Shown here: piece after piece, positions 4,636 to 31,200 of the stretch
Numbering within the stretch: the first letter of the stretch is position 1
Layout of the letters: each line of letters starts with the position of its first letter
Source of the DNA: a virus
IMG/VR virus record: IMGVR_UViG_3300008267_000126
Span: 1 to 39,973 of that record
Direction: 5' to 3' (one strand)
DNA: 39,973 bases
Position numbers and translations under genes: made by a program
Notes under the pieces: generated by a model
The model's input: only the letters and a program-made list of their open reading frames with translations
Told to the model about the DNA's origin: nothing
Database searches by the model: none

Positions 4636-5456
4636 TAGAAACCTATGCTAATCGCTGGAGCAGTTAAAGATAAAGTCTTAGTTGTCGTCCAAGTCGCAGG
4701 GAGAGCTCCAGAGACTCCCGATTGCGTCCACGCAACAGCACCATAAGAAGATGAAGACAAGATACCAGTTGGAATAACTTCACTCATAACTCCGTTGGTT
4801 GTCGTATAACTATAAAGACCCGGGTTGCTGACTCCTTGCCGAACACCAACCAACCAATACAGACCGGGAGTCAATGAGACTGAAATAATCGCTAAGTTTG
4901 GTCCGGTGGATCCGCCAACAGTATCAGTTCCAATAACTCCTCCATCAGCCAAGCGAGCGTTCGGATAATCGTCAGTCGTGCTGTTGCTATAAATACCGAC
5001 ACGAACGCCACCAGACGCTCCGTTGAGAGACGTTACGTTGATACTCAAATAAATTGCTGTAATGGTTTGAGGACAATAGAACGGAACGGCATGAGCCAAG
5101 TCAGCCGTAAAAGTCGTTCCCGATCCTTGCGTAACCAAACCAATCGGAGCATAGAAATACCCGGTCTTCACGTATCTAGGACCATAAGGGACCGGAGTTG
5201 AGGCCGCCGTAACTAGATTGGTTACAACTCCAGAAGTGTTGACGTATTTAGGCGTGTTCGTAGTCGTATTGAGCCAGATGTCTCCAACTCTCGGATTGGA
5301 CGGATCGCCTGTTGTCCCTCCAGTAATCGTTGGCTGACTCGTCAAGACAGGAGTATTAGGCATAGTGAAACGTTGAGCGTTCTCAACTTTGTTGAGCCTC
5401 GCATCAAGATCCGCAAAGATAGCTTGAAGACTAGGAGGGAGATTGACGTAACCCAT
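4635..5456 (-). CDS. Minor tail or tail-tip protein, 273 aa
   Basis: The N-terminus has a short coiled-coil-like segment (FADLDARLNKVENAQRF). A GDIWLNTTTNTPKYVN motif common in phage fibre and appendage proteins follows. The rest is rich in Thr, Ser, Gly and beta strands (about residues 90-273), as in receptor-binding or carbohydrate-binding domains. It is the most distal tail gene in the late operon, which fits a host-recognition role. AGGA lies 8 bases before the ATG. Confidence 0.7.
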   Translation of the reverse strand: MGYVNLPPSLQAIFADLDARLNKVENAQRFTMPNTPVLTSQPTITGGTTGDPSNPRVGDIWLNTTTNTPKYVNTSGVVTNLVTAASTPVPYGPRYVKTGYFYAPIGLVTQGSGTTFTADLAHAVPFYCPQTITAIYLSINVTSLNGASGGVRVGIYSNSTTDDYPNARLADGGVIGTDTVGGSTGPNLAIISVSLTPGLYWLVGVRQGVSNPGLYSYTTTNGVMSEVIPTGILSSSSYGAVAWTQSGVSGALPATWTTTKTLSLTAPAISIGF

Positions 5457-5464
5457 TTGAGATC

Positions 5465-6553
5465 CTAACTTGTCGGAAGAGTCAACGTGACTGTAACTCT
5501 CTCAGGACCGGTCTCCCCGGGAGTCACCGACAAAGCCACAATCCGATAAGTTGCGTCTATGCCATCAGGGAATCGGTCATCCTTGATACGAACTCTAGCA
5601 TCATCTCCAATAACATACGAGCCGAGGACTGGATTGAGGCTCGGATTGGCGACAAGCTTGATGGTAGTCGGAGGATAAGAGACGGCGGCCACACGACCAG
5701 AGGCGAGACCTTGAACCAACGTTGCGTCAATGATGTCGTTGAAAGAAACAGAGTCCTCCAAGAGCGGCCACCCGGACGTAAGTTTCGTGGAGTCCGTTGC
5801 GTTGTAAATCAACTTACCCTCATTAGATCCTGCTCCGGTTGCGTAGATTCGGTTGGCAACCAGAGATCCATCTTCTGGATACTCGTACTCAACCACGTTG
5901 CCAGCAGGGAACTCAAAGACCGGGACAGATGTAGACGTTGACGAGTACGCCGTTCCAAGCCTCGGATAGCCAAGAACTAGAGTTTTAGTGATGTTGTAGT
6001 CCGAGTTGTAAGCACAACGAATCGCAAAGTCAAAGCCAGATCCGGATCGGCTCAAGTCCAAGAGAGCTTGATAAACTGTCTTCTGCTCGTAAGCGTAGAA
6101 CAACCGAGTCAAGTTGACTCCAGAAGTTTCGCTCCCGGTCAAGACTCCGATGTTGCCGTTAGCGACAGATTGAGCCGTATTCACTAGACCACGAGCTATC
6201 GCCAACTGATCCGTATTGAAGTAAGTCAAGTTAGAGGCGATACGTCTACGTTCAAAGTAAGACTCAAACTCTCTAGCCGAAATTGTTAGACGTTGACTCT
6301 TAGAGTTGTAGGATCTCAACCAAAGTATTCCACCCCAAACGATAACTCCGTCTCGGTCAACGTAGACGGCAGTACGTCCGGGAGTAGTTGAGGCTGTAAC
6401 GTTCTGATTGACCGAAACTCCTGAAAGCAAGATAGAGCCGTTCAACGTTCCCGAGGAGTTGAGAGCCTGAGTGAAGTTGACTCCAGTTATTTCTAACTCA
6501 GCGTTGATTGCGTTCGTGACTAGATCCGCAAAGAAGTAGCGATAAGTCGCCAT
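5465..6553 (-). CDS. Minor tail protein (baseplate hub/Gp37-like), 362 aa
   Basis: The product resembles the actinophage minor tail proteins often grouped as Siphovirus Gp37-like. It has an N-terminal beta-rich domain with VYVDRDGVIVWGGILW, then LTISAREFESYFERRRI, a helical FYAYEQKTVYQALLDLSRSGSGFDFAI stretch and a C-terminal RIKDDRFPDGIDATYRIVALSVTPGE segment. Such proteins form the tail-tip hub below the tape measure. It lies next to the lysis genes, which are embedded in the tail cluster here. Confidence 0.78.
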   Translation of the reverse strand: MATYRYFFADLVTNAINAELEITGVNFTQALNSSGTLNGSILLSGVSVNQNVTASTTPGRTAVYVDRDGVIVWGGILWLRSYNSKSQRLTISAREFESYFERRRIASNLTYFNTDQLAIARGLVNTAQSVANGNIGVLTGSETSGVNLTRLFYAYEQKTVYQALLDLSRSGSGFDFAIRCAYNSDYNITKTLVLGYPRLGTAYSSTSTSVPVFEFPAGNVVEYEYPEDGSLVANRIYATGAGSNEGKLIYNATDSTKLTSGWPLLEDSVSFNDIIDATLVQGLASGRVAAVSYPPTTIKLVANPSLNPVLGSYVIGDDARVRIKDDRFPDGIDATYRIVALSVTPGETGPERVTVTLTLPTS

Positions 6554-6556
6554 GAT

Positions 6557-6844
6557 TTACTTCTTGTCTTTAGACTGCTCTTCAACCGAATCGGCGGCTC
6601 TCTTGAAAGCTCGCTGGAGATCCTCCAAGATGACTCGCATCTTGCCAATCATCGTTCTACCAATCTCGCTAAAGACCAGCAACATCGCTCCCATGAACAT
6701 CGTCAAGATACCTGTTAGAGCCGTAGACCCGGGGAGGATTGCTCCGACTCCAGCACCGACTCCAACTACGATGAAGAAAAGTCCAACGGAGAACCAGATG
6801 AACCAACCTAGTAACTTTAGGATCGCAACTATACGAGATTTCAT
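6557..6844 (-). CDS. Two-pass membrane protein, candidate holin
   Basis: The 95-residue product has two strong hydrophobic spans, about residues 8-34 and 40-60, and a charged C-terminal tail (ILEDLQRAFKRAADSVEEQSKDKK). This is class II holin architecture. It overlaps the start of the M23 endopeptidase gene by one base, so it sits in the lysis position. A second single-span protein at 7312-7533 flanks the endolysin on the other side; either or both could be the holin. Confidence 0.65.
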   Translation of the reverse strand: MKSRIVAILKLLGWFIWFSVGLFFIVVGVGAGVGAILPGSTALTGILTMFMGAMLLVFSEIGRTMIGKMRVILEDLQRAFKRAADSVEEQSKDKK

Positions 6845-7311
6845 TAGGCCGCCTTATTTGAGAGGATGTGTTTCAAAGGATCTACAAGTTTGTCGTATGG
6901 AGCAAGGTGAACGTTGACTCCAGAGAAGTTAGGTCCCATCTCTCCAATAGAGAGGTGTAGGTGAGCTCCGGTTGAGGCTGTCCCGGACGGCGTGTTCTTG
7001 CCTCCACCGACTTTACCGATGATGGTCTTGCCTCCCTCAACTTTGTCTCCCTTTACGAGACTAGGTTTCTCGGCTAGGTGAGCGTATAAGATCCACTTCT
7101 GATCCTTGCTTGAGTGGACTAGGATCCAACCGAGAACGTCCGTCCAAGCGACAAGTCCAACAGTTCCAGAGGTAATCGCTTTTATAGGAGAGTTCTCTTT
7201 AGGACTCCAGTCCTGTCCACGATGCGGTCTGCCCTTGCGATACGGAGCTAAATTGCCAAACTCGTCACCTCTGGTCTTCACCGGGAACGGCTCATGATAA
7301 ACGACACTCAT
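6844..7311 (-). CDS. M23-family peptidoglycan endopeptidase, endolysin
   Basis: The enzyme cleaves peptide cross-links in cell-wall peptidoglycan during lysis. The zinc site is visible as H30..D34 (PHRGQD) and the H-x-H pair at 117-119 (GAHLHLS), with another catalytic-type histidine in YAHL near 78. At 155 residues it is a bare catalytic domain with no signal peptide or separate wall-binding domain, so export would depend on a holin. Membrane-protein genes lie on both sides. Confidence 0.9.
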   Translation of the reverse strand: MSVVYHEPFPVKTRGDEFGNLAPYRKGRPHRGQDWSPKENSPIKAITSGTVGLVAWTDVLGWILVHSSKDQKWILYAHLAEKPSLVKGDKVEGGKTIIGKVGGGKNTPSGTASTGAHLHLSIGEMGPNFSGVNVHLAPYDKLVDPLKHILSNKAA

Positions 7312-7533
7312 TTATGCTCCTAACGCTCTCGCAATCAAATAAACCAAACTAGAAGATAGACCAGCCGTCAATACGCTAATCAACCAAGCAGATTGGTAAC
7401 GTGCTTTCTCTAACGCTCGGATCCTCTCTTCATGGTCAGCAACAACATCTAGTTTCGCTTTGATGTCGGCGATGTCCTCAACAACTCTAAGCAAGAGAGC
7501 TTGGTTGCTTGGCGGTCTAATTTCGTCACTCAT
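7312..7533 (-). CDS. Coiled-coil and single-span membrane protein, 73 aa, holin-like
   Basis: The N-terminal half is a predicted coiled coil (LLLRVVEDIADIKAKLDVVADHEERIRALEKAR). One membrane span near the C-terminus follows (WLISVLTAGLSSSLVYLIARAL). This layout is typical of actinophage lysis-cassette membrane proteins. ATG at 7533 overlaps the TAA of the previous tail gene as TAATG, and I prefer it to the ATG three codons earlier. Confidence 0.7.
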   Translation of the reverse strand: MSDEIRPPSNQALLLRVVEDIADIKAKLDVVADHEERIRALEKARYQSAWLISVLTAGLSSSLVYLIARALGA

Positions 7534-8894
7534 TACGCCCACGCTCCAATAGAGTTCATAGCCGAAGTTCCGACAGGAGTTATCTTGACGAAAGAGTTAT
7601 TCGTTACAGTGAAGGAGGTTGTGTTGTTGACCGACAAAATAATTTGAGGAGTCAGCACAGTCGTTGAGGCAGCTGTTCGGACAAGTCCAGTAACTCGGAA
7701 GTTCACGTTGTATGTTGATGCTGTCGCTGGAGTTGTGTAAATCAAACCAGTCAACGGCAAGCCAGATAAGAACTTGCTGGACGTTGTTCCGTTGTCCACA
7801 CCACCAACAACAAAAGGGTTAGTTGAAGTTGGCAAGTTCGTATAAGAAGTGATTACTGAGATGCTGTTGGCGACAGCCGTGTTAGTGACGAAAGTCGCTT
7901 GACCGACAATCTCTATTTCGTAAGTCGTTGAGGCCGCTAAGGATAGACCGACACCGAATAAAGATTGAGCAGTTGTAGAACCAGCAGTTAGAGTTCTCGT
8001 TGCTGAGAGAGCGTAGAAGTGACGAGATGGAAGAAGTCCACGTCCACCATTAGTGGTCAACGTAGAGGTAGAGTTCGGAGCAAGATACGCCACGTTGCCG
8101 TCATACTCAATAGCTCCACCAATAGTTCCCGAGTTGAGTAGCGATCCGGATCTCAAGTCAATCGGAGGAGCAGAAGTAGTACCAGTCAACGGATAGAAAG
8201 TTCCGTTCTGGTCTATGTAAGTCAATACAGTCGGAGTATTGTTACGCCATTGTTGAAGAGCCGTCAACTGACCAGATGCTCCAGTTACGACTAGAGGAAC
8301 GTTAGCGGCCGTTGAGTTATTTACAGCAACGTTAGACGTTGAAGTCAAACCCGGAGTCGTAAGCGATCCTGTTAGAGTACCTCCAGTTATTGGCAGGACA
8401 GGCAAGTTGGTTGTCGTCAAGGACCGGGTGTCCGTAATGTTACCAGCAACCACAGACGTTGCTAGAGCGGCTACGGCAATAGTCGCCAAAGAGATTGAGT
8501 TGTTTGGAGTTGCTGGAGCAGACGGCGAGGCCGCTGGAGTTCCCGCCAAGACCTGAAAAGTCACGTTGTTAGTCGCACCCGAATAGAACGAGTCGTTCAC
8601 AGTAACTACAATTCGGTCAACTCTTGGCAAGCTCGGATCGGCAGTAGTGATAGTTAGAACAGTCGTGCCGTCATTGTAGGCAACGTAAGTACCCGAGTTT
8701 GATGGAGTTCCGACAATCGCACACCACCCGGACGCAACGTTTACAGTCATGTTTGGAACTGCTTGAGCGGTAACGGCTAGAGACGTTGCTCCAATGATGC
8801 CTGTTGAGTTGTAGATTGCCCTAGTGGTTAGCCTGTCGTTCTCGGCAGGATGCGATCCGTTTTGTAACCAACTCGGAGGAGTTCTTAATGCCAT
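7533..8894 (-). CDS. Tail fibre or minor tail protein, 453 aa
   Basis: The N-terminal domain (LRTPPSWLQNGSHPAENDRL, then VNVASGWCAIVGT and PRVDRIVVTVND) resembles the conserved attachment domain of actinophage minor tail proteins. A glycine/threonine-rich middle with PITGGTLTGSLTTPGL is a fibre repeat motif. The C-terminal 170 residues are beta-rich and probably form the receptor-binding part. AAGGAA lies 8 bases before the ATG. Confidence 0.75.
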   Translation of the reverse strand: MALRTPPSWLQNGSHPAENDRLTTRAIYNSTGIIGATSLAVTAQAVPNMTVNVASGWCAIVGTPSNSGTYVAYNDGTTVLTITTADPSLPRVDRIVVTVNDSFYSGATNNVTFQVLAGTPAASPSAPATPNNSISLATIAVAALATSVVAGNITDTRSLTTTNLPVLPITGGTLTGSLTTPGLTSTSNVAVNNSTAANVPLVVTGASGQLTALQQWRNNTPTVLTYIDQNGTFYPLTGTTSAPPIDLRSGSLLNSGTIGGAIEYDGNVAYLAPNSTSTLTTNGGRGLLPSRHFYALSATRTLTAGSTTAQSLFGVGLSLAASTTYEIEIVGQATFVTNTAVANSISVITSYTNLPTSTNPFVVGGVDNGTTSSKFLSGLPLTGLIYTTPATASTYNVNFRVTGLVRTAASTTVLTPQIILSVNNTTSFTVTNNSFVKITPVGTSAMNSIGAWA

Positions 8895-22563: not shown

Positions 22564-23919
22564 TTATCCTAACGCCTGATGGCAAGACGGGCAGAACTTG
22601 GCTGTCTTCGGTGCTGGCATCCGACAAGATGGACAGAACTGAGCGAGAGCCGCTATACCTAGCATAGAGGACGCTCCCTCCATTAAGTCCGTCATCGCCC
22701 AAACTAAAGCATCAAGTCTGTCTGGTGAGAAGTCTGCGAGTGGAGTGTAGTTCGTCATCTGATCCTCTAGTTGAGGGAACGATCCGACATGGTGAGCTCG
22801 GTGTTGCTCGTAGAGAGATGCGACAGGTTCGGCTCTAAGTAACTTGCCTCGGGTTGCCGTAACTTTCTTGTAAGGGATAAGCGGATCTACTTGTCGGAGG
22901 AGAGCCTCAATCATGTCGCCTCCATTGTTGCCCTCACCGATGATGCGATCCGCTTTATGACGATAGTACGCCTCTACTGCTGTCCTCGCCCAAGCGTCCG
23001 GTCCTGCTCTACGACTCAAGTCCTCTAAGACGTAATAGTGTCCATCGCTCGTAACTCCAGCGACCACGATACCTGTTTCGTCAGAGTCCGGTCTGGACGT
23101 TACGGCAGGATCTATGGCGACTACGATCCGGATCAGAGGAGGACACTCTTGAACCCGGGTTTCATCTAAGAGCGTGTTAGTCCATAGAGCTCCGTCAACC
23201 TCGTCAATGATTTCGCCGTAAAGCTCTTGCCGTCCGAGGCGTGTTCCCTCGTAACGTAGTTTGAGATCCGCTAGAGCCGTTGGAGCCAGATTGTCTGCGT
23301 TGTCAAAGGTTGAACCCCGGGTGACTACGACAGAGCCGTCTGTCCGGGTTGCGAGGGATCGGATAAGGGACGTTGGTCTCGGAGTCGTGGTGACAATAAT
23401 ACGAGGCTTGTCGCCTAGACGTAGACCGAACTGGAGTTGATCCCAAGCATCCGTGTAGCGATAGGCCGCTAACTCGTCACACCAAGCTCCGTGATGTTGA
23501 GGTCCACGAAATCGGTCTGGTTTGTCTGCCGAGAAGAGTTTGATACGAGAGCCGTTAGTGAGGAGGATCTCTCCGAGAGACCTGTTCCAATCCTTGAGCA
23601 TCTTGTAACGTCTCAACACTCCGAGAATCCCGGACTCTCCCTCAGCACAAGTGTCTCTAGCGTCAGCGTAAGTTGGAGCGACTATCGCCCAACGAGTGTT
23701 TGGTTGAGAGATTGCTTGGTCTGCCAGCCACTCGGCCGCCGTCCTAGTCTTCCCTGCTCCACGTCCAGCCAGATAGAGCCAGACGTTCCAATCGCCGTCA
23801 GGAGCTAACTGTTCCGTTCTGGCTTGCTCCACTCTCCAGCGGTAACGGCTTGCCCGGATCCACTGAGCCGAGTAGTCCAATGATGCGTTCAATGTCTTCG
23901 TTGTAGTCGTAGTTGCCAT
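22564..23919 (-). CDS. terL: Terminase large subunit with C-terminal zinc ribbon, 451 aa
   Basis: The ATPase domain has Walker A AGRGAGKT at residues 51-58 and Walker B WCDELAAY near 136. The RNase H-like nuclease has VAIDPAVTSRPDSDETGIVVAG, RIIGEGNNGGDMIEALL and the final DRLDALVWAMTD. The last 25 residues add CPSC and CPSC pairs, a zinc ribbon that most large terminases lack. The ATG at 23919 has AGAGGTGG 9 bases upstream, although this gives a 122-base overlap with the small subunit; a GTG at 23832 is the alternative. Confidence 0.93.
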   Translation of the reverse strand: MATTTTTKTLNASLDYSAQWIRASRYRWRVEQARTEQLAPDGDWNVWLYLAGRGAGKTRTAAEWLADQAISQPNTRWAIVAPTYADARDTCAEGESGILGVLRRYKMLKDWNRSLGEILLTNGSRIKLFSADKPDRFRGPQHHGAWCDELAAYRYTDAWDQLQFGLRLGDKPRIIVTTTPRPTSLIRSLATRTDGSVVVTRGSTFDNADNLAPTALADLKLRYEGTRLGRQELYGEIIDEVDGALWTNTLLDETRVQECPPLIRIVVAIDPAVTSRPDSDETGIVVAGVTSDGHYYVLEDLSRRAGPDAWARTAVEAYYRHKADRIIGEGNNGGDMIEALLRQVDPLIPYKKVTATRGKLLRAEPVASLYEQHRAHHVGSFPQLEDQMTNYTPLADFSPDRLDALVWAMTDLMEGASSMLGIAALAQFCPSCRMPAPKTAKFCPSCHQALG

Positions 23920-24283
23920 CGTAGTTCACCACCTCTGCCTGAACCCGAGTCGGAGCTTCAAGTCCGAGGAGTTTCGCTCTCCGATCCATAACCTTTAGAA
24001 CGACCTCTGCCGCTCTCTTATCTCTCTCCACGATTGCTGGAGTCCAGAACGCTCTCTGAATCCGGTCTAACCTGTCCAACTCTAAGTCTCGGATCTCGTC
24101 AACACTTTCACGTTGAACCCGGGACACAACTCTCGCATACGCTTTCTGAGCTCCCGAGGCGTTCGCATAACCAACGGCTAAAGCAATCCTCTCCCAAGTT
24201 TCACCGGATCGCCGTAACTCAAGGACTTTATTCTCTTTATCAAACTGTTCGGGAGGGACAGACTTGCGTTTCTTTGTCGCCAC
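23798..24283 (-). CDS. terS: Terminase small subunit, 161 aa
   Basis: The product has a helix-turn-helix-like N-terminal region (KVLELRRSGETWERIALAVGYANASGAQKAYARVV). A helical oligomerisation region with ELDRLDRIQRAFWTPAIVERDKRAAEVVLKVMDRRAKLLGLEAP follows, typical of actinophage small terminases. I chose GTG at 24283 (VATKKRKS) because GAGAGAGG lies upstream and the previous gene ends 17 bases before; the longer frame overlaps the kinase. It recognises phage DNA for packaging, possibly in modified form given its neighbours. Confidence 0.82.
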   Translation of the reverse strand: MATKKRKSVPPEQFDKENKVLELRRSGETWERIALAVGYANASGAQKAYARVVSRVQRESVDEIRDLELDRLDRIQRAFWTPAIVERDKRAAEVVLKVMDRRAKLLGLEAPTRVQAEVVNYDGNYDYNEDIERIIGLLGSVDPGKPLPLESGASQNGTVSS

Positions 24284-24300
24284 TATGGTTATCCTCTCTC

Positions 24301-24831
24301 TCAGGATAAATAGTATCGTATCTGTTCGGCTAATGCTAGTGGCGTGAGGGATCCGTCTAGGTTTATTGCGCCCCAACGTTGAGCGAGGTTGAGGTGTTTG
24401 GTTTGTCTGCCTTTGAGCCAAGTCGGATTCTGTGTGGCGAGGTTGTAGGCTCTGGCTCTAGCGATACGGCGTTCTTGTGCGACTCTAGGATCGGTGTTGA
24501 GGTGGAAGATTATGGTTTCTCCATGGTCTTTGGCTAGACGTATGAACCTGTCGTTCGCTAACCTGTCTCCCTCAGAGATTACGAGTCCGTCTATGCCGTC
24601 TCTATACCAGTTGGCGACTTGGTTGATGACTGCTTGCCCTAGAGTGTCTGTTCCAGAGAACGGAGGTCTATGCCAACCGAGTTGTATTGCCGATCCGTAT
24701 GGTGTGTCGTAAGTGACGTGTTTGACCGGGTGGAGTTCTAACGTGAGTTCCGTCCAAGGTTTCACTAGCTCTGCCGTCAGAGTTGACTTACCAGATCCTG
24801 GCTCTCCCAAGATGATTAGGGTTTTAGTCAT
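24301..24831 (-). CDS. P-loop DNA kinase of the 5-hydroxymethyl-pyrimidine (5-HMUDK-like) family
   Basis: Residues 9-17 are a P-loop (GEPGSGKST). The family signatures HVTYDTPYGSAIQLG, HRPPFSGTDTLG (54-65) and ISEGDRLAND (85-94) follow. In thymidine-hypermodifying phages such kinases phosphorylate 5-hydroxymethyluracil in DNA, making the 5-phosphomethyl base that the next enzyme attacks. At 176 residues it is the usual size. It is the last gene of the modification cassette and overlaps its neighbour by 8 bases. Family membership is recognised from motifs; the substrate base here is inferred. Confidence 0.83.
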   Translation of the reverse strand: MTKTLIILGEPGSGKSTLTAELVKPWTELTLELHPVKHVTYDTPYGSAIQLGWHRPPFSGTDTLGQAVINQVANWYRDGIDGLVISEGDRLANDRFIRLAKDHGETIIFHLNTDPRVAQERRIARARAYNLATQNPTWLKGRQTKHLNLAQRWGAINLDGSLTPLALAEQIRYYLS

Positions 24832-25036
24832 TTCTTTTCTTTTCTTCTGGTATGAACCCGAGTTGTCGTTCTGGTATCGGCTCTTTGTCGGCTATGTGAG
24901 TTATTGAGGCTAGTTCCCCTTGAAACTCTCTAGGTGGTTGGCACTTATGCGTTCTTCGCCACTCTCGTATCAACTTGAGTTCGTCATCTCGGTTGACCTC
25001 TATGGCGGCTCCACAAGAGCAAGTTTCGTTTATCAT
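24824..25036 (-). CDS. Small cysteine-bearing protein in the modification cassette, 70 aa
   Basis: I chose ATG at 25036, which overlaps the FAD-gene stop as TGATG; the longer frame would run back through that gene. The product starts MINETCSCGAAIEVNRDDELK and continues LIREWRRTHKC, giving C-x-C and a later His-x-Cys that could bind zinc. The tail is unstructured (PIPERQLGFIPEEKK). No family is recognised. Its fixed place between oxidoreductase and kinase suggests a carrier or DNA-targeting role. Confidence 0.7.
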   Translation of the reverse strand: MINETCSCGAAIEVNRDDELKLIREWRRTHKCQPPREFQGELASITHIADKEPIPERQLGFIPEEKKRND

Positions 25037-25851
25037 CACAATAGGGATTTCAGCCAGTTTTCTATGGCGGCTGGAGCAATCGCATACCCGGATCGTGCTA
25101 GGTTGCCGATAGACGTAGTTGTCTCGCCAAGTTTCGGAAGAGTTGGTTCGTTGCCTTTGACTCGGGATCGTATTCCTGTGACGACTTGCCAACTTGCTCC
25201 GGGTAGAACTAACTTGGCTGTCTCGGCAACTTGTAGCATCTCCTCTACGCTTCTAATAGCGTCTGCCTCGGTCTTAGCGATACTAGATCCGAGACGTGTC
25301 TCTCCTCGGTTCTCTGCGATTGTTAGCGTATGGTATGGACGGATGTGGTGGATCCTAAGCGGCTTATGGTCTAGGACCGCGTTCGTTGAGATTAGTGTTG
25401 CTCCCCATAAGTCTTCGTGAGGGACAGAGAGGTTGCCTCCGTAAGCTCCTGTTGCGTTTAGGACGGCATCAAACTCGTATTGGTCATCTTGCGTGACGAT
25501 GATGTTGTCGTTGACGAATCGGACTTGCTCGGAGATGTCTGGCGTGACGAGACTTGCCTCCGGGTCAACCAACCACCAATCTTTCTGGAGTTTGACGTTG
25601 GAGTTACGCCAGTGCGAGACGTATGCGTGTTGAGTGATTGCCGATCCCCAAGTCTCGTACCATCGCCACGATTGCTGGATTGTCCCTTGGAGATCCTCTT
25701 TGAACCATTGAGGTCTGATGGTCGCTAAAGCACATCTGGAGGCGGCTTTCCCGGGTGCGTGGTCAAAGACTGTAACGTCCATGCCTAGTTGTCTGCCGAT
25801 TCTGGCCGCTGACGATCCGGCTATACCCGATCCGATAACTCCAAGTTTCAT
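25036..25851 (-). CDS. FAD-dependent oxidoreductase (glycine/D-amino-acid oxidase-like) of the modification cassette
   Basis: The N-terminus has a dinucleotide-binding fold with GSGIAG at residues 7-12 and VTVFDHAP ending the second strand. Later DAVLNATGAYGGNL and the C-terminal VTGIRSRVKGNEP and GNLARSGYAIAPAAIENWL match the DAO-fold ends. In the M6-type pathway an FAD enzyme of this kind cleaves the glycine attached to the base, leaving 5-aminomethyl. ATGA overlap and GGAG couple it to the transferase gene. The 271-residue length is short for a DAO enzyme, which are usually 350 or more. Confidence 0.82.
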   Translation of the reverse strand: MKLGVIGSGIAGSSAARIGRQLGMDVTVFDHAPGKAASRCALATIRPQWFKEDLQGTIQQSWRWYETWGSAITQHAYVSHWRNSNVKLQKDWWLVDPEASLVTPDISEQVRFVNDNIIVTQDDQYEFDAVLNATGAYGGNLSVPHEDLWGATLISTNAVLDHKPLRIHHIRPYHTLTIAENRGETRLGSSIAKTEADAIRSVEEMLQVAETAKLVLPGASWQVVTGIRSRVKGNEPTLPKLGETTTSIGNLARSGYAIAPAAIENWLKSLL

Positions 25852-26753
25852 TCTGGTCTCCTCACTACCAACTTACCTGTTTCTTTGAAGACTCGCTTAC
25901 GTTTCTGGTCTACGCCTGTCCAGCCGTTCAACTCCCCGAGATAGTGGTGAGGGATAACCCGAGCTCTAGCCTCAAACATTACTTGAGCGAGAGGACTTGG
26001 ACACTTGAGGAGGTTCTCCAACATAGCGTCTATGTCCATGCCGAGATAGTAATGACCCTCTGCGAGAGCGTATACGTCACAGAGAGACGTTTCAGCCTCT
26101 TCTATCTTTGCGTCCACTCCAAGTTGCTCTAATTTTCCAAGGAGGTCTATTGAGATCCTATCTAACTCTGCGACATCTTCAAGTCCGTTGCCGTCCGGGA
26201 GGTTGTCGTAGAGTAACGCAAGTCCTTTTCTTGGACCGGAGGAGTGAGCGTGTCCCATGTCGCTTGCTTGTAGAGGAAGGTCGTTTATCTTCCAAAGCAT
26301 TTCTGCCGTCTTGTAGGATGCCCAACGTCCGTTGCCGTAGATTGACTCTAACGCTCCGACAACCCGGTCCCAAGATTGTTGCGGGGAGTCGTGGACTAGG
26401 TATTTACGGATCCAAGCGAGGAGGCCGCCATTGTTTTCTGCGATGGAGACGAGTTCTCCGAGGTGTCTCTCTAGCTTGCTTGGTACTCTATGAGCTCTTC
26501 GTTCTGTCCCGGTCGGCAACTTGAGGAGGTCTAGTCTCGGGATTGTTGGCTCACGATGTTCTTGAAAGACTTGGAGCGTTGAGTTCATGTTGTAGTAAGC
26601 GACATAGAGAAACGTCAACCATACTGCTTGCTCCTCGGAGAGTTTTAGGATCTTACCGAACTCTTTGAGGCAAGGATAAACGTCATCTATTTCGTTGCTG
26701 GCAACTGACTCTGCGTGAAACTGTGCGTAAGTCTGCCAATCTAGGCGACTCAC
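25848..26753 (-). CDS. Amino acid:DNA transferase-like protein (alpha-glutamyl/putrescinyl thymine pyrophosphorylase family)
   Basis: The product shows features I recognise from the aGPT-PPlase/amino-acid:DNA transferase family: LTFLYVAYYN (47-56), YGNGRWASYKTAE (139-151) and DMGHAHSSGPRKGL (165-178). A helical C-terminal half ends FEARARVIPHHYLGELNGW. These enzymes displace phosphate (or pyrophosphate) from a phosphomethyl base with an amine such as glycine or putrescine. It starts with GTG in a GTGA overlap with the dioxygenase gene. Which amine is used cannot be read from sequence; the neighbouring FAD enzyme favours glycine. Confidence 0.8.
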   Translation of the reverse strand: MSRLDWQTYAQFHAESVASNEIDDVYPCLKEFGKILKLSEEQAVWLTFLYVAYYNMNSTLQVFQEHREPTIPRLDLLKLPTGTERRAHRVPSKLERHLGELVSIAENNGGLLAWIRKYLVHDSPQQSWDRVVGALESIYGNGRWASYKTAEMLWKINDLPLQASDMGHAHSSGPRKGLALLYDNLPDGNGLEDVAELDRISIDLLGKLEQLGVDAKIEEAETSLCDVYALAEGHYYLGMDIDAMLENLLKCPSPLAQVMFEARARVIPHHYLGELNGWTGVDQKRKRVFKETGKLVVRRPE

Positions 26754-27613
26754 TTGACCTTTGTTGTGCCTGTTTTGAGATCCTCAGCCATGCCGTCTTC
26801 ACGTTTAGTCCGAGACTCTTTGGCCTTAGCGGTCTCAACTGCGTAAGTGAAACAATCTTTCATGCCTCGGAGAGCGTAATACACGACTGAGTAGCGATAA
26901 GCTCCCTCCTTTTTAGGAGTCATTGGAGTTACGCCATGGACGTACTTGTAACCCGGGAAGAAACTTACCCAACCATCTCTAGCCGTAAAGGTGAAGTCGT
27001 ATTCGGGGAAGTGGAGATAACCTCCAGCCATGTCTCTACGGATTACTGGCATCGCTGACCAAGTTGCGAAGTTGAAGCCGTCTCGGTGATACGGCAGAGT
27101 TGACGACTTGTTGACTACTCCTGAAGTCCAGAGAGCGTCATCGGTCATCCTCCACTCGTTCGCTAACTCTGCGTTCTCCAGATTGTTTACATCGTGGTCG
27201 TAGAGATCCGGTGCGAACTCTTTGAACATTTCGGCGAACTTTTCGGCGAACTTGATAAGGACGGCGTGTTCGTCAGGTTGCTCTAAAGCTAGAGTTGTCG
27301 GACGGCAGGACTCTCTACGTTGAAAGATTTTGCGTGGAGCCATACCGAACGTACGGCTAATGTTCTTTAGTCCGGTTGATTGTCTAATGGTGGATCCATA
27401 CTTGATGTTTAGGACGGCGGCTCTCAATAAAGCAACCTCCTCTTCCATCGGGAAACAAGCGAAGATTGGCTCTTCCGTATCATCGTCAATCCAAATCCCC
27501 GGTCCATGTTGTGGCGGGTTGATGTCCGGGACTTCTGTTCCGACTAGCTCTGTCGCTTGGTCTTCGGTCAGAACTCGCTTGACTCTATGGATCGGTAACT
27601 CACTCAGTTTCAC
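26750..27613 (-). CDS. TET/JBP-family 2-oxoglutarate/Fe(II) DNA base dioxygenase
   Basis: The double-stranded beta-helix core is clear. The iron ligands are H176 and D178 in PYHRDGFN and H226 in YKYVHGVTP, and the 2-oxoglutarate-binding arginine is R240 in AYRYSVVYY. Between them are GGYLHFPEYDFTF and DGWVSFFPG, as in phage TET/JBP proteins. It would hydroxylate the methyl of thymine or 5-methylcytosine in DNA. The GTG start at 27613 has GAGGAGG about 6 bases before it. Sequence alone does not say which base it uses. Confidence 0.87.
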   Translation of the reverse strand: MKLSELPIHRVKRVLTEDQATELVGTEVPDINPPQHGPGIWIDDDTEEPIFACFPMEEEVALLRAAVLNIKYGSTIRQSTGLKNISRTFGMAPRKIFQRRESCRPTTLALEQPDEHAVLIKFAEKFAEMFKEFAPDLYDHDVNNLENAELANEWRMTDDALWTSGVVNKSSTLPYHRDGFNFATWSAMPVIRRDMAGGYLHFPEYDFTFTARDGWVSFFPGYKYVHGVTPMTPKKEGAYRYSVVYYALRGMKDCFTYAVETAKAKESRTKREDGMAEDLKTGTTKVK

Positions 27614-28268
27614 GCGGTGCCTCCTCAGCGTACTCGGTTTCTAGTAGATGGACTATTGCGTCTGCGTTTGAGGCGATGTTGTTCTTGTTTCGGTAGTCCA
27701 ACAACTTCTCCATCAACCAGACGTAAGTTGCGTTCGGGTAATCGGCAATCAGCATACGAGTTGCTTTTTGAGCGTAACGTTCAGCGTACTCCTCCAGACT
27801 TGGAATCGTAAGTGTCCCGCTCTGTCCTGTCTCGCCTTTGCTAACTGCCGAGAACGCCGACACGCTTGGAGTCTCTGACTCCTCTAGTAGAGCTTTCAAG
27901 TCGTCAAGATCCGACTCTTGATACCCGGAGCCATCAAGATCCGGGAGAGTTGAAAGAAGAGCCAAGAGTTTCTCATTGTCATACTCACCTAGATCCGCAG
28001 ACCTGTTGTCTATGGCAACAATCTTGGCGGCCGTCTCCTCGTCAACGTTTATGAAAGTTACGGCAATCGTGTCCCAACCGAGTTGTTGAGCGGCTTGGAA
28101 CGTATGATTGCCAGCAAGGATTTCATTGTTGTTGGCGTTTACGGTGATTGGTTTGTATTGACCATAAGTCTCTAGGGACTTGGCGATTAGTGATACATCG
28201 CTCTTTCTCGGATTGTTCGGGTAAAGATTGAGATCCGATAAAGGTACTTGCTCTACTTTGAGTGTCAT
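27600..28268 (-). CDS. ParB-like nuclease-domain protein, first gene of the modification cassette
   Basis: The N-terminal ParB/Srx-fold domain has VPLSDLNLYPNNPRKSDVSLIAKSLETYGQYKPITV and ILAGNHTFQAAQQLGW (GNHT replacing the usual GxxR). AIDNRSADLGEYD follows. The C-terminal third is helical. Single-domain phage ParB proteins of this kind are often neighbours of base-modification genes and may guide or license modification. It lacks the DNA-binding HTH and dimerisation domains of chromosomal ParB, so it is unlikely to bind the parS site at 32623. Confidence 0.85.
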   Translation of the reverse strand: MTLKVEQVPLSDLNLYPNNPRKSDVSLIAKSLETYGQYKPITVNANNNEILAGNHTFQAAQQLGWDTIAVTFINVDEETAAKIVAIDNRSADLGEYDNEKLLALLSTLPDLDGSGYQESDLDDLKALLEESETPSVSAFSAVSKGETGQSGTLTIPSLEEYAERYAQKATRMLIADYPNATYVWLMEKLLDYRNKNNIASNADAIVHLLETEYAEEAPRETE

Positions 28269-28294: not shown

Positions 28295-28708
28295 CTAGAA
28301 CGGAAGAGAGTCTGCTGGCAGACTTGTTGGAGTCGCTGGCACGAACGGAGAGTCACCCGGAGTGAACGGAGCGTCTGTTGAGAGTTGATCCTTGTCGTGA
28401 CGGATCGCCGTAGAGACAACCTCGGCTTTGATGACTAGGTTCTTGATGGTTGAGCCATCCTTTTCGTAAGTCTCCTGAAAGAGCTCTCCAGATACGATAA
28501 CCCGGGTTCCCTTGACGTATAGGACCTCTGGCAACCGATCCCAAACGGCAACTCTGAACCAAATTGTTTCAGCGTCAATCCACTCGCCGTTCTTCTTCTC
28601 CCGAGGAGTTACGGCTACCGTTAGATTACTTACATACTTGCCCTGTTTGGTCTGACGGACCTCAACGTCTCTTCCGAGATTGCCGATGATTGTTATAGGG
28701 ATGTTCAT
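28295..28708 (-). CDS. ssb: Single-stranded DNA-binding protein
   Basis: This is a typical OB-fold SSB: ITIIGNLGRDVEVRQTKQGKYVSNLTVAV, then WFRVAVWDRLPEVLYVKGTRVIVSGEL. A disordered Pro/Thr-rich linker ends in the tip ADSLPF, equivalent to the acidic protein-interaction tail. At 137 residues it is close to normal length. It coats single strands in replication and recombination. Confidence 0.93.
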   Translation of the reverse strand: MNIPITIIGNLGRDVEVRQTKQGKYVSNLTVAVTPREKKNGEWIDAETIWFRVAVWDRLPEVLYVKGTRVIVSGELFQETYEKDGSTIKNLVIKAEVVSTAIRHDKDQLSTDAPFTPGDSPFVPATPTSLPADSLPF

Positions 28709-29925
28709 TTTGTTTCTTCCTTATCTTTTAGTAGTTGTTTTGGCAGTAAGATCCGTAAAGCGATTTCTGCCTGTTGTGGAACAACGCCGTTGCCAGCGAG
28801 TTTCAACTCTTCGTTTCGGGTCAATCCACAATTGGTTATCCAACCCTCGGGGAGTCCCATCATCCACTCTGTAAATACGCTAGAGAGTCTTTGAGCTCCG
28901 TCTCTGCCATCTGGTTTAGTTGGCGATGGTGCTGGTCTTCCGAGAGTCGCCTCCCATCGTCTGATGGCTGGCTCGTATTTACCCCAAATGTCCGGGTTGT
29001 CTACACCGGATCTAGCAACGTTCGTGAGAGCGACTTGATTGCCGTTGGCGATACGCTCCTCAGCCGTAATGGTCGTATCTTGTTTAGTTCCCTCGGAGGC
29101 TAGAACAGTTGGCAACAACTCCACCTCAACTTTCAAACGTCTATGTGGATTACCCTCGGCAACCTCGGAGGAGGCGGCACCTCGGTTGTCGCTCACAGTT
29201 ACAGTTGGCAATAACTCTACTTGGTCTTCAAGTCTTCCCTTAGTTGCTCCAGACTCTATTTGAGAGCGAGTAGATCCGTTCGCAGAGCTAGTTCGTGGAG
29301 TCCCAAGCAACATTACGTCTTCCCTTAAGTTCCCGGTCGTAGACCGGACAGAGCCTCCCTCAACTCCTCTACGCAACTGACGCTCTAACGCCTCACCCTC
29401 TCTTGCTGGAAGAGAGTCCATCGTGTTAGGAGTCGGAAACAAGTCAATACCCTCCTGCTCCAAACGGATCGCAACTCCGAGACTTGCTCCGGGCATACCC
29501 GAGGTACGTCCAGCCTCGTAATCTTCTCTCCTCTGGAGATAGTCCTCTAAATCTTCATCGTGATTACGGATGTGACCAACAGTCGGAGTTGGAAGAGTCA
29601 CGAGGTCTACAATCTGGTCTCTCAACATGACGTAATGTCCTTTAGCCTCTTTGACTTTTGCCGAGACTGCTCCACCATCACCCTCAACGGCAACTGGAGT
29701 TTGAAACAACTTTTCTTCACCATCCGTCCCGAGACGCAACGATGAAGATCCGTTCCCTCCTGTGCGGAGCTCCAGCATCGGAAGCTCGTACGCCTGTCCA
29801 CCTAGCGTCATACCCGAGACTGGCCAGGTCCCCGAGAACAGCTCCAAGTGCTCGCAATATAGGCTCGCTATCGGTTGCTCCCATACACCACGAACATCGT
29901 TCCAGATGGCTATTGGCTTTAGCAT
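28705..29925 (-). CDS. C5-cytosine methyltransferase, C-terminal part (target-recognition region and motif X)
   Basis: The start region (LFSGTWPVSGMTLGGQAYELP) and the repeated LLPTV/LLGTPRTSS blocks match the C-terminal part of phage Dcm-like methylases. So does the end (FTEWMMGLPEGWIT, then KLAGNGVVPQQAEIALRIL, motif X). It lacks motifs I-VIII, which are on the separate frame 29717-30277. The start at 29925 lies inside that frame, giving about 209 bases read in two frames. Together the two chains could form a two-subunit enzyme. ATGA coupling links it to ssb. Confidence 0.75.
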   Translation of the reverse strand: MLKPIAIWNDVRGVWEQPIASLYCEHLELFSGTWPVSGMTLGGQAYELPMLELRTGGNGSSSLRLGTDGEEKLFQTPVAVEGDGGAVSAKVKEAKGHYVMLRDQIVDLVTLPTPTVGHIRNHDEDLEDYLQRREDYEAGRTSGMPGASLGVAIRLEQEGIDLFPTPNTMDSLPAREGEALERQLRRGVEGGSVRSTTGNLREDVMLLGTPRTSSANGSTRSQIESGATKGRLEDQVELLPTVTVSDNRGAASSEVAEGNPHRRLKVEVELLPTVLASEGTKQDTTITAEERIANGNQVALTNVARSGVDNPDIWGKYEPAIRRWEATLGRPAPSPTKPDGRDGAQRLSSVFTEWMMGLPEGWITNCGLTRNEELKLAGNGVVPQQAEIALRILLPKQLLKDKEETK

Positions 29926-30277
29926 TTAGTATTCCTCTCACATTTTCAATAACTACGAGTTTTGGTTGTAACGTTTCTATTGCTCTAGCGAACTCGCTCC
30001 AGAGTCCACTCCTTGTTCCCTCTTTGAGTCCTGCTCTCTTCCCTGCGACACTCAAGTCTTGGCAAGGGAATCCTCCAGTTAGAATCTCAACAGGTTCAAC
30101 TTGAGTGAAGTCTACGGATCTTACGTCTTTATAGTTTGGTACGTCCGGGTAATGTTTCTCAAGGACCTTGCTTGGAGCTTTATCAAACTCACAATGCCAG
30201 ACAACTCTTCCCCCGGTCACGTTGGAGACGGCGATGTCTAGGCCGCCGTAACCACTAAAGAGCGAACCGATCCTCAC
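29717..30277 (-). CDS. C5-cytosine methyltransferase, catalytic N-terminal part
   Basis: Catalytic motifs are intact: motif I LFSGYGG (6-12), motif IV PCQ with nucleophile C72, motif VI ENV (111-113) and motif VIII HRRERIF (172-178). The protein stops at residue 186, before the target-recognition and motif IX-X region, which are encoded by 28705-29925 in another frame. The enzyme would transfer methyl from S-adenosylmethionine to cytosine. It starts with GTG in a GTGA overlap. A sequencing frameshift is an alternative explanation, but the conserved blocks overlap rather than abut. Confidence 0.82.
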   Translation of the reverse strand: MRIGSLFSGYGGLDIAVSNVTGGRVVWHCEFDKAPSKVLEKHYPDVPNYKDVRSVDFTQVEPVEILTGGFPCQDLSVAGKRAGLKEGTRSGLWSEFARAIETLQPKLVVIENVRGILNAKANSHLERCSWCMGATDSEPILRALGAVLGDLASLGYDARWTGVRASDAGAPHRRERIFIVASRDGW

Positions 30278-30936
30278 GACTTGTCTCGCTCTCTGATGAT
30301 TGCTGACCGGATCTCAATGCTCAAGTCTTCTGGCACCATAGAGCGTTCTTTGCTTGAGGCTCTGCCCTGAGTCCCTCCTGAGTGGTCTCCTCTAGGTGAG
30401 GGAGTGTGGCAAGGATCTCCAGCCTTACACGCTGGTCTAGCCGTCCACCCGGGAACGAATCCCCACAAGTCCGTTGGTTTCATCCGGTCGTCTCCGTATT
30501 GGCAATACGAGACTGTTTGTCTCGGGAGTCCCTCTACAACAGATAACTTACGGAGCATTCCTCTCGGGTTCTCTATGATGAATCCGTATCTTGGACGTAT
30601 AGCCTCAACTAGCATCCGAGCTTGAGCGACTAGCCGCTGATTTAGAATCGCCAACTCTGACTTAGGTTGAGGATTATCTCCTCCACTAATCCAATGAAAC
30701 GGAATAGACGCAACGGAGAACGCCGTACAAGGAGGACTAGCCCAAATGAAGTCCGGTTGTCCGTAAGTCGCTAAGAGGTATTCGGGAGTCAACGTCAATA
30801 CGTCTACGTTCTCGGTTGCCGAGAATTGCGGATCTAACTCAAAGGAGATGATTGTGTCGCCAGCATCGGCGAACGCTTTAGTGCTTGATCCGGTCCCAGA
30901 GAAGAAGTCATAAATAAGTAGTTTAGAGTCGCTCAA
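30274..30936 (-). CDS. Phage DNA methyltransferase-like protein (Dcm-related, compact)
   Basis: The 220-residue product has a Rossmann motif FFSGTGSS (11-18), SPPC with candidate nucleophile C70 (67-70), and IENPRG (121-126). QTVSYCQYGDDRMKPTDLWGF follows, then a Cys/His segment (CKAGDPCH..PRGDHSGGTQG) found in a widespread phage family annotated as DNA cytosine methylase. The start is TTG at 30936 behind the AAGGCTAAACA block. It is distinct from the split enzyme downstream. Confidence 0.78.
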   Translation of the reverse strand: MSDSKLLIYDFFSGTGSSTKAFADAGDTIISFELDPQFSATENVDVLTLTPEYLLATYGQPDFIWASPPCTAFSVASIPFHWISGGDNPQPKSELAILNQRLVAQARMLVEAIRPRYGFIIENPRGMLRKLSVVEGLPRQTVSYCQYGDDRMKPTDLWGFVPGWTARPACKAGDPCHTPSPRGDHSGGTQGRASSKERSMVPEDLSIEIRSAIIRERDKS

Positions 30937-30939
30937 TGT

Positions 30940-31200
30940 TTAGCCTTTGTTCTTATCTAATCTTACACGCCTCTTGATTAAGAGTCTTCGTTTCTCCTCG
31001 GTGAGTCCTCCCCAAACTCCATCCGTAATTTGATTGTCTATGGAGAACTGGAGACAAGCTTTCTGGAGAGGACAATCCTCGCAGATACTTATTGCGAGAT
31101 CCTTAAAGAGAGGGTCAAAGAAGAACTCCGGGTCAACCCATTTCTGAGTACACTTCGCTAACTCGTTGCCGTCACTATCCCTAGTTTCAAAGAACTTCAC
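30940..31200 (-). CDS. WhiB-family iron-sulfur transcription factor
   Basis: The four cluster-binding cysteines are C17, C40, C43 and C49, followed by the WhiB turn GVWGGLT (61-67) and a basic DNA-contact tail (KRRLLIKRRVRLDK). WhiB proteins are confined to Actinobacteria and their phages and act with the housekeeping sigma factor. It starts with GTG at 31200, five bases after AGGAG. It may switch host or phage promoters during infection. Confidence 0.93.
   Translation of the reverse strand: MKFFETRDSDGNELAKCTQKWVDPEFFFDPLFKDLAISICEDCPLQKACLQFSIDNQITDGVWGGLTEEKRRLLIKRRVRLDKNKG

Follow-up and report, generated by a model that had tools for sequence, protein, structure and literature searches.

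The 39,973-base virus record IMGVR_UViG_3300008267_000126 of IMG/VR (analysed whole and called the window below) carries at positions 24,301 to 28,268 a cassette of six overlapping minus-strand genes by which a tailed phage of actinobacteria probably hypermodifies thymine after replication. The six genes encode a ParB-like protein, a TET/JBP dioxygenase, an amino acid:DNA transferase (AADT or ADDT), an FAD-dependent enzyme of the DAO type, a 71-amino-acid Cys protein and a P-loop kinase; they sit between an SSB gene and the terminase, and the successive open reading frames (ORFs), from ParB to the kinase, overlap by 14, 4, 4, 4 and 8 bp. A first-pass annotation, made from the sequence without database searches, had called all six, and Pfam gives a firm assignment to each of them except the Cys ORF. 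The window also has phage structural genes on its minus strand (terminase, portal and tail tube) and a WhiB-like gene at 30940–31200, and the WhiB-like gene, together with the relatives found among actinobacterial phages, points to an actinobacterial host.

The pathway that we propose has four steps. The TET/JBP enzyme, with the ParB-like protein as its partner, would act on finished phage DNA, hydroxylating thymine at its methyl group to give 5-hydroxymethyluracil, the class of the enzyme being assigned by homology and thymine being its predicted substrate. The P-loop kinase would very likely then phosphorylate the hydroxymethyl group, and we hold with equally high confidence that the transferase would exchange this phosphate for the amine of an amino acid. 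Homology to a glycinyltransferase makes glycine the probable donor, in which case the product would be 5-(carboxymethyl)aminomethyl-dU. The FAD enzyme would finally take off the carboxymethyl arm oxidatively, as MnmC does on tRNA, a step made likely by its homology to gp47 of Pseudomonas phage PaMx11, ThiO and MnmC, and 5-aminomethyl-dU is, on balance, the end product we expect. DNA modified in this way would withstand host restriction, and we infer a role in restriction evasion; site-specific placement of the final base, which the first-pass annotation held likely, is possible. The same genes are grouped beside the terminase in phages Phelemich, Kozie and MO526, and also in CaiB and Tonitrus, which have a divergent oxidoreductase.

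Family assignments of the cassette enzymes

The TET/JBP protein scores 37.2 bits against the Tet_JBP model PF12851, above the curated cut-off of 34.9, and the residues that the first-pass annotation had singled out, H176, D178, H226 and R240 (the HxD...H iron triad and the 2-oxoglutarate-binding Arg), are invariant among 41 homologues. Structure prediction, which that annotation had proposed as a check, agrees: an AlphaFold model from 37 homologues (mean predicted local distance difference test score, pLDDT, of 82) has CcTet, TET2, NgTET1 and CMD1 as its top PDB folds (E-values 4.7e-12 to 4e-9), ahead of every other fold, and thus models as a double-stranded beta-helix of the TET/JBP kind. Oxidation of 5-methylpyrimidines in DNA is the activity predicted for it. 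N181, the residue that follows the HxD motif, is also invariant among the TET homologues; it was considered as a marker that might separate thymine from cytosine enzymes and rejected as not diagnostic, since human TET2 presumably has an Asn at the matching position as well. The family phrog_6059 names TET/JBP proteins queuine tRNA-ribosyltransferase, a label that looks wrong. A ParB gene is found upstream of TET in all 71 loci with enough upstream sequence, regardless of which genes occupy the slot between TET and the terminase (below), so ParB is taken to be the partner of TET and not of the amine module; an SSB gene is upstream as well in 49 of the 55 loci where this could be tested.

The amino acid:DNA transferase belongs to PF18724, and its alignment (A3) matches solved members of the family in the PDB, namely an AADT (25qc, 2.2e-17) and a glycinyltransferase (8z2m, 5.2e-8); alignment with PaMx11 gp46 by hhalign gave 2.8e-11. 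The call of an amino-acid:DNA transferase-like protein in the first-pass annotation is borne out by these matches, as is its FAD oxidoreductase. The latter matches PF01266 above the cut-off and has an FAD-binding GxGxxG motif in which G7, G9 and G12 are invariant, and a hidden Markov model (HMM) of its family, built with PaMx11 excluded, retrieves PaMx11 gp47 at 1.3e-14. Among NCBIfam models, this enzyme is fitted best by glycine oxidase ThiO (1.8e-11) and by the FAD domain of MnmC (1.3e-5), both under their curated cut-offs. MnmC cuts the carboxymethyl arm off cmnm5U, the modified wobble uridine of tRNA, and leaves an aminomethyl group (PMC9626948). By homology to PaMx11 gp47, the window enzyme is predicted to remove the carboxymethyl group from DNA-bound glycyl-thymine. 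The first-pass annotation had ascribed FAD-dependent trimming to phages ViI, M6 and SP10; this proved misplaced, for it is the PaMx11 route (gp46 to gp47).

The kinase motifs GxPGxGK[ST], F.GTD.L and EGdRLA, the last of them noticed in the first pass, are invariant or nearly so among 24 homologues, and a further motif, QN..W..GR.TK..N, is also conserved. The phosphorylation step of M6-type phages has been described (PMC6449724), and by hhalign the window kinase matches the PaMx11 kinase (1.1e-7) and the M6 kinase (2.8e-6) with distant similarity only. It belongs to PF18751 and M6 gp54 to PF18748, which places it outside the 5-HMUDK family, and the helical partner HMUDK_hel (PF18723), encoded by both M6 and PaMx11, was found in 0 of 31 TET records. 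Its assignment as a kinase of the hydroxymethyl base is thus a functional prediction and not one of family membership. Profile comparisons suggested in the first pass return the TET/JBP, AADT and DAO families as expected and part from expectation at the kinase; of the aminomethyl-base route that it put forward, the succession of TET, kinase, transferase and FAD enzyme is supported, and membership of the kinase in the 5-HMUDK family (PF18748, with PF18723 as helical partner) is not. PHROG and GenBank labels would make this protein a small terminase, an identity that we rejected: a separate terminase-associated family adjoins the large terminase, and it is PF18751 that the kinase family follows. 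GenBank carries the name "terminase small subunit" on the pathway kinases of Nigel (L088, 1786–2382), KayaCho (L089, 1802–2377), M6 (gp54) and PaMx11 (gp49), and phrog_800 is labelled likewise; in all of these the label looks wrong.

The small Cys protein is present in 4 of 86 screened loci, two of which have identical TET proteins, so it was rejected as a core component and is regarded as accessory. A longer ORF with a TTG start was replaced as the Cys gene by the ATG ORF of Table 1.

Table 1. Cassette genes and their neighbours in the window (Pfam and PHROG matches with E-values).
Feature	Position	Strand	Match
ParB-like protein, 222 aa	27600..28268	-	PF02195 (ParB_N) 7.4e-7; phrog_723 2.3e-47
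TET/JBP 2OG-Fe dioxygenase, 287 aa, GTG start	26750..27613	-	PF12851 2.1e-9
Amino acid:DNA transferase (AADT/ADDT), 301 aa, GTG start	25848..26753	-	PF18724 2.8e-22
FAD-dependent DAO/glycine-oxidase-like enzyme, 271 aa	25036..25851	-	PF01266 3e-10
Small Cys protein, 71 aa, ATG start	24824..25039	-	no Pfam match
P-loop kinase, 176 aa	24301..24831	-	PF18751 (Ploopntkinase3) 5.7e-21
Putative small terminase subunit, at right-hand edge of swappable slot	23798..24421	-	weak helix-turn-helix match in Pfam
Large terminase subunit	22564..23919	-	PF03237 1.9e-25
SSB protein, conserved upstream neighbour	28295..28708	-	PF00436 1.3e-19
Split C5-cytosine methyltransferase, C-terminal/target-recognition part	28705..29925	-	phrog_1008 1.6e-58
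Split C5-cytosine methyltransferase, catalytic part	29717..30277	-	PF00145 6.8e-39
Second C5-methyltransferase-like protein	30274..30936	-	PF00145 3.8e-5; phrog_757 2.1e-27

The family of the small terminase candidate adjoins the large terminase in 53 loci. The large terminase itself ends in a zinc-ribbon-like Cys motif (a weak match to PF13240, under the cut-off). Elsewhere in the window a putative amidoligase (PF12224, 34100–34969) adjoins a protein like low-molecular-weight phosphotyrosine phosphatases (PF01451, 33678–34175). The split methyltransferase, whose catalytic and target-recognition halves lie in separate overlapping ORFs, and the second short gene (28705–30936) were not judged part of the cassette proper; beyond the window, only the sister phage L002 showed genes arranged in this way.

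Substrate and end product

A thymidylate-synthase-type hydroxymethylase (PF00303) was found in 0 of 39 records (the window and 38 relatives, four complete genomes among them), whereas PaMx11 has one, and a dUMP or dCMP hydroxymethylase elsewhere in the genome was rejected on this result. The first-pass annotation had seen no dUMP hydroxymethylase, and had concluded that the dioxygenase makes the hydroxymethyl base on finished DNA; the missing gene agrees with this, but the annotation overlooked the SSB gene and the two C5-methyltransferase units upstream of the cassette, and with them the alternative that 5-methylcytosine (5mC) is the substrate. According to that alternative, TET would oxidise 5mC made by the methyltransferases to 5-hydroxymethylcytosine, from which kinase, transferase and FAD enzyme together would make 5-aminomethylcytosine at the methyltransferase sites. 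The two units lie directly upstream of the cassette and are retained in L002, and phage TETs active on 5mC reportedly co-occur with C5-methyltransferases (Burke et al. 2021). Against it, a C5-methyltransferase occurs among the related records only in the window, L002, L032, L050 and L077, and the whole set of TET, transferase, DAO and kinase genes is found with no such gene in the complete genomes of Phelemich and Kozie and in the long contigs G003 and G013, so that we consider this alternative unlikely.

The survey behind this statement found PF00145 in 3 of the 39 related records (the window, L002 and L032) and in 0 of 5 additional ones. The genes of L050 and L077, which lay outside the 39-record search, were judged real from their motifs, and matches in L074 and L075 were discarded, the iterated HMM having drifted to a protein that is not a methyltransferase. 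PF00145 was absent from 7 complete isolate genomes, from 9 further TET-bearing contigs of at least 37.5 kb, and from 2 cellular assemblies with a TET locus, a 3.1-Mb Corynebacterium assembly (with a ParB-TET-ADDT-KIN locus, where KIN is the kinase) and a 1.5-Mb actinobacterial metagenome-assembled genome. Because it is absent from isolate genomes, long contigs and cellular assemblies alike, 5mC does not appear to be generally available to these enzymes and is disfavoured as the general substrate; the conserved, 5mC-supplying C5-methyltransferase that would mark a cytosine hypermodification cluster is missing from almost every relative that has this cassette. Hydroxylation of thymine in finished DNA is the simplest reading, and thymine is quite likely the substrate.

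Several points nonetheless weigh against a thymine pathway that ends in an aminomethyl base. Many of the contigs are partial, and in those the absence of a methyltransferase is weak evidence; the two units in this phage could supply 5mC, which this particular phage may use, and the residue pattern of TET does not separate thymine from 5mC. The kinase falls outside the characterised 5-HMUDK family and is without the helical partner subunit, the identity of the amine does not follow from the sequence, and the function of the cassette is predicted here from genes and modelled structures.

The pathway might also end elsewhere than at 5-aminomethyl-dU, with glycine or another amino acid staying on the base (the N-alpha-glycyl-T type) or the amine being capped later, and with some other role for the FAD enzyme. 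No DAO is recognised in three loci that carry transferase and kinase (L017, L023 and L056), an Asp/Asn beta-hydroxylase-like protein occupies the DAO place in L055, and PaMx11 has an extra acetyltransferase; the window DAO nevertheless falls in the PaMx11 gp47 family and has glycine oxidase as its best NCBIfam model, and such an ending seems rather improbable. The protein of L055 (5181–6266, PF05118 1.1e-7), which lies between ADDT and the kinase, may represent a further modification variant. Very improbable, in our estimation, is that these genes act on something other than DNA or are functionless remnants. Some GenBank and PHROG labels differ from ours, such as the tRNA-ribosyltransferase name given to TET, but the genes are open and overlapping, their catalytic residues are invariant over 40–100% identity, they are retained beside the terminase in phages that infect several different genera, and they have homologues among the DNA-acting enzymes of M6 and PaMx11.

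Exchange of modules in the slot before the terminase

In about 85 related loci (86 were screened) the genes run SSB-ParB-TET-[slot]-small terminase-large terminase, and the content of the slot varies. It holds ADDT, DAO and kinase in 20 loci (some of them cut off ahead of the kinase), ADDT and kinase together with a pyridoxal phosphate-type enzyme related to the ACC-deaminase/D-cysteine-desulfhydrase family in 6, ADDT and kinase with or without another gene in 6, the kinase alone in 6, protein f5, usually with f6, in 15, f7 in 6, and f2/f22 in 21, while in 5 loci TET is followed straight by the terminase. The model of f5 (pLDDT 90.8), a protein with no Pfam match, best matches T4 beta-glucosyltransferase (template modelling score 0.74), and f2 has weak similarity to PF20691, a family of TET-associated glycosyltransferases (under the cut-off), and matches the phage glucosyltransferase family phrog_842. 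A PDB sequence search with f7 and f2 gave no match; f7 looks like a glycosyltransferase to the eye. The 148-amino-acid f6, whose sequence opens with a HAD-like DxDGVL and which matches no family, nearly always follows f5 (L033, 4765–6131, and 13 similar loci).

Eight loci (L088, L089, L043–L046, L053 and L005) have ParB, TET and kinase and no amino-acid transferase, and the complete genomes of Nigel and KayaCho have none; the predicted end product of such loci would be a phosphorylated hydroxymethyl base. Phage Hangman combines TET and kinase with a divergent ADDT. The ParB-TET-ADDT-KIN-terminase locus of Corynebacterium sp. 13CS0277 (L092, about 5184–8814) lies in a cellular assembly without a C5-methyltransferase and is presumably a prophage.

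Along the TET tree at least 20 changes of slot content are needed, and at least 7 between amine/kinase and glycosyltransferase modules if scoring is confined to these two states; with long branches left out the values are 16 and 6. Among close relatives, L003 and L006 have ParB, TET, TerS and TerL proteins that are 97, 95, 99 and 98% identical, respectively, and slots of f2+f2 versus f7, and L048 and L053 have flanking proteins 91–97% identical and slots of f7 versus kinase. Since near-identical phages hold unrelated slot modules, the pattern fits a common TET-made hydroxymethyl intermediate with exchangeable finishing enzymes. We put forward, as an idea about as easily doubted as accepted, that ParB and TET/JBP form a fixed thymine-hydroxylating core before the terminase while the slot repeatedly swaps amine modules (built on the transferase and either an FAD or a PLP-type enzyme), kinase-only modules and glycosyltransferase modules, presumably against modification-dependent restriction. 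If this is true, the kinase-only slot predicts a phosphorylated base, for example in Mycobacterium phages Nigel and KayaCho, and the glycosyltransferase slot predicts base-J-like sugars in phages. We did not find such exchange described in the searchable literature, which left out key primary papers on these modifications. The swapping is suggestive of an arms race centred on modified-base chemistry and makes the slot a source of new DNA-modifying enzymes. The core also occurs in cultured phages whose hosts are easy to handle, M. smegmatis for Phelemich and Nigel and Microbacterium for Kozie.

Comparison with known systems

The precursor route of the ViI, M6 and PaMx11 type is marked by a phage dUMP hydroxymethylase, which was not found in the window. 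PaMx11 encodes homologues of the AADT (gp46) and of the FAD enzyme (gp47) as well as a P-loop kinase (gp49) that is analogous, but it makes 5-hydroxymethyl-dU (5hmdU) before polymerisation by the thymidylate-synthase-family hydroxymethylase gp51, its kinase works with an HMUDK_hel subunit, and it carries an acetyltransferase; its N-alpha-GlyT/5-NmdU pathway is reportedly the subject of Wen et al. 2024 and Lee et al. 2022. The window cassette ties a TET/JBP enzyme to an amine route that has so far been worked out only in phages whose 5hmdU is made at the nucleotide stage, and comparison across its relatives argues for thymine as the substrate.

Phage TET clusters active on 5mC have the TET/JBP fold and decorating enzymes that include TET-associated glycosyltransferases (the PF20691 family mentioned above), but they are said to co-occur with C5-methyltransferases, which the window's family mostly does not. 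In the base J pathway (JBP thymidine hydroxylase and glucosyltransferase) thymine is likewise hydroxylated in finished DNA and then decorated, and the T4 beta-glucosyltransferase fold in the slot of the window's relatives adds to the likeness, whereas the window itself has an amine module and no sugar module. TET/JBP-made hydroxymethyl pyrimidines were reportedly predicted by Iyer et al. 2013 to be starting points for further modification.

Phelemich (Mycobacterium), Kozie and MO526 (both Microbacterium) have the full TET-ADDT-DAO-KIN set beside the terminase, with ParB as gene 1 in Phelemich and two genes upstream of TET in MO526; they are 39–46% identical to the window at the level of TET and ADDT, and Phelemich and Kozie differ from it in having no C5-methyltransferase. 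None of these three was found described as a modification system in the searchable literature. Even so, the cassette is no novelty: it belongs to a known kind, predicted by annotation in several cultured phages. Rhodococcus phage Tonitrus has an annotated "five-gene thymine hypermodification system" (PMC11955845), and the same gene set has been published as annotation for Gordonia DR-cluster phages such as CaiB (PMC9302106). Tonitrus and CaiB belong to another phage lineage, their genomes lack a C5-methyltransferase, and their last gene is a divergent oxidoreductase that the window's DAO profile misses; the window nevertheless has every element of their locus, namely ParB, TET/JBP, ADDT (40% identical), a PF18751-type kinase (36–37% identical) and an oxidoreductase, with the shared genes in the same order next to the terminase.

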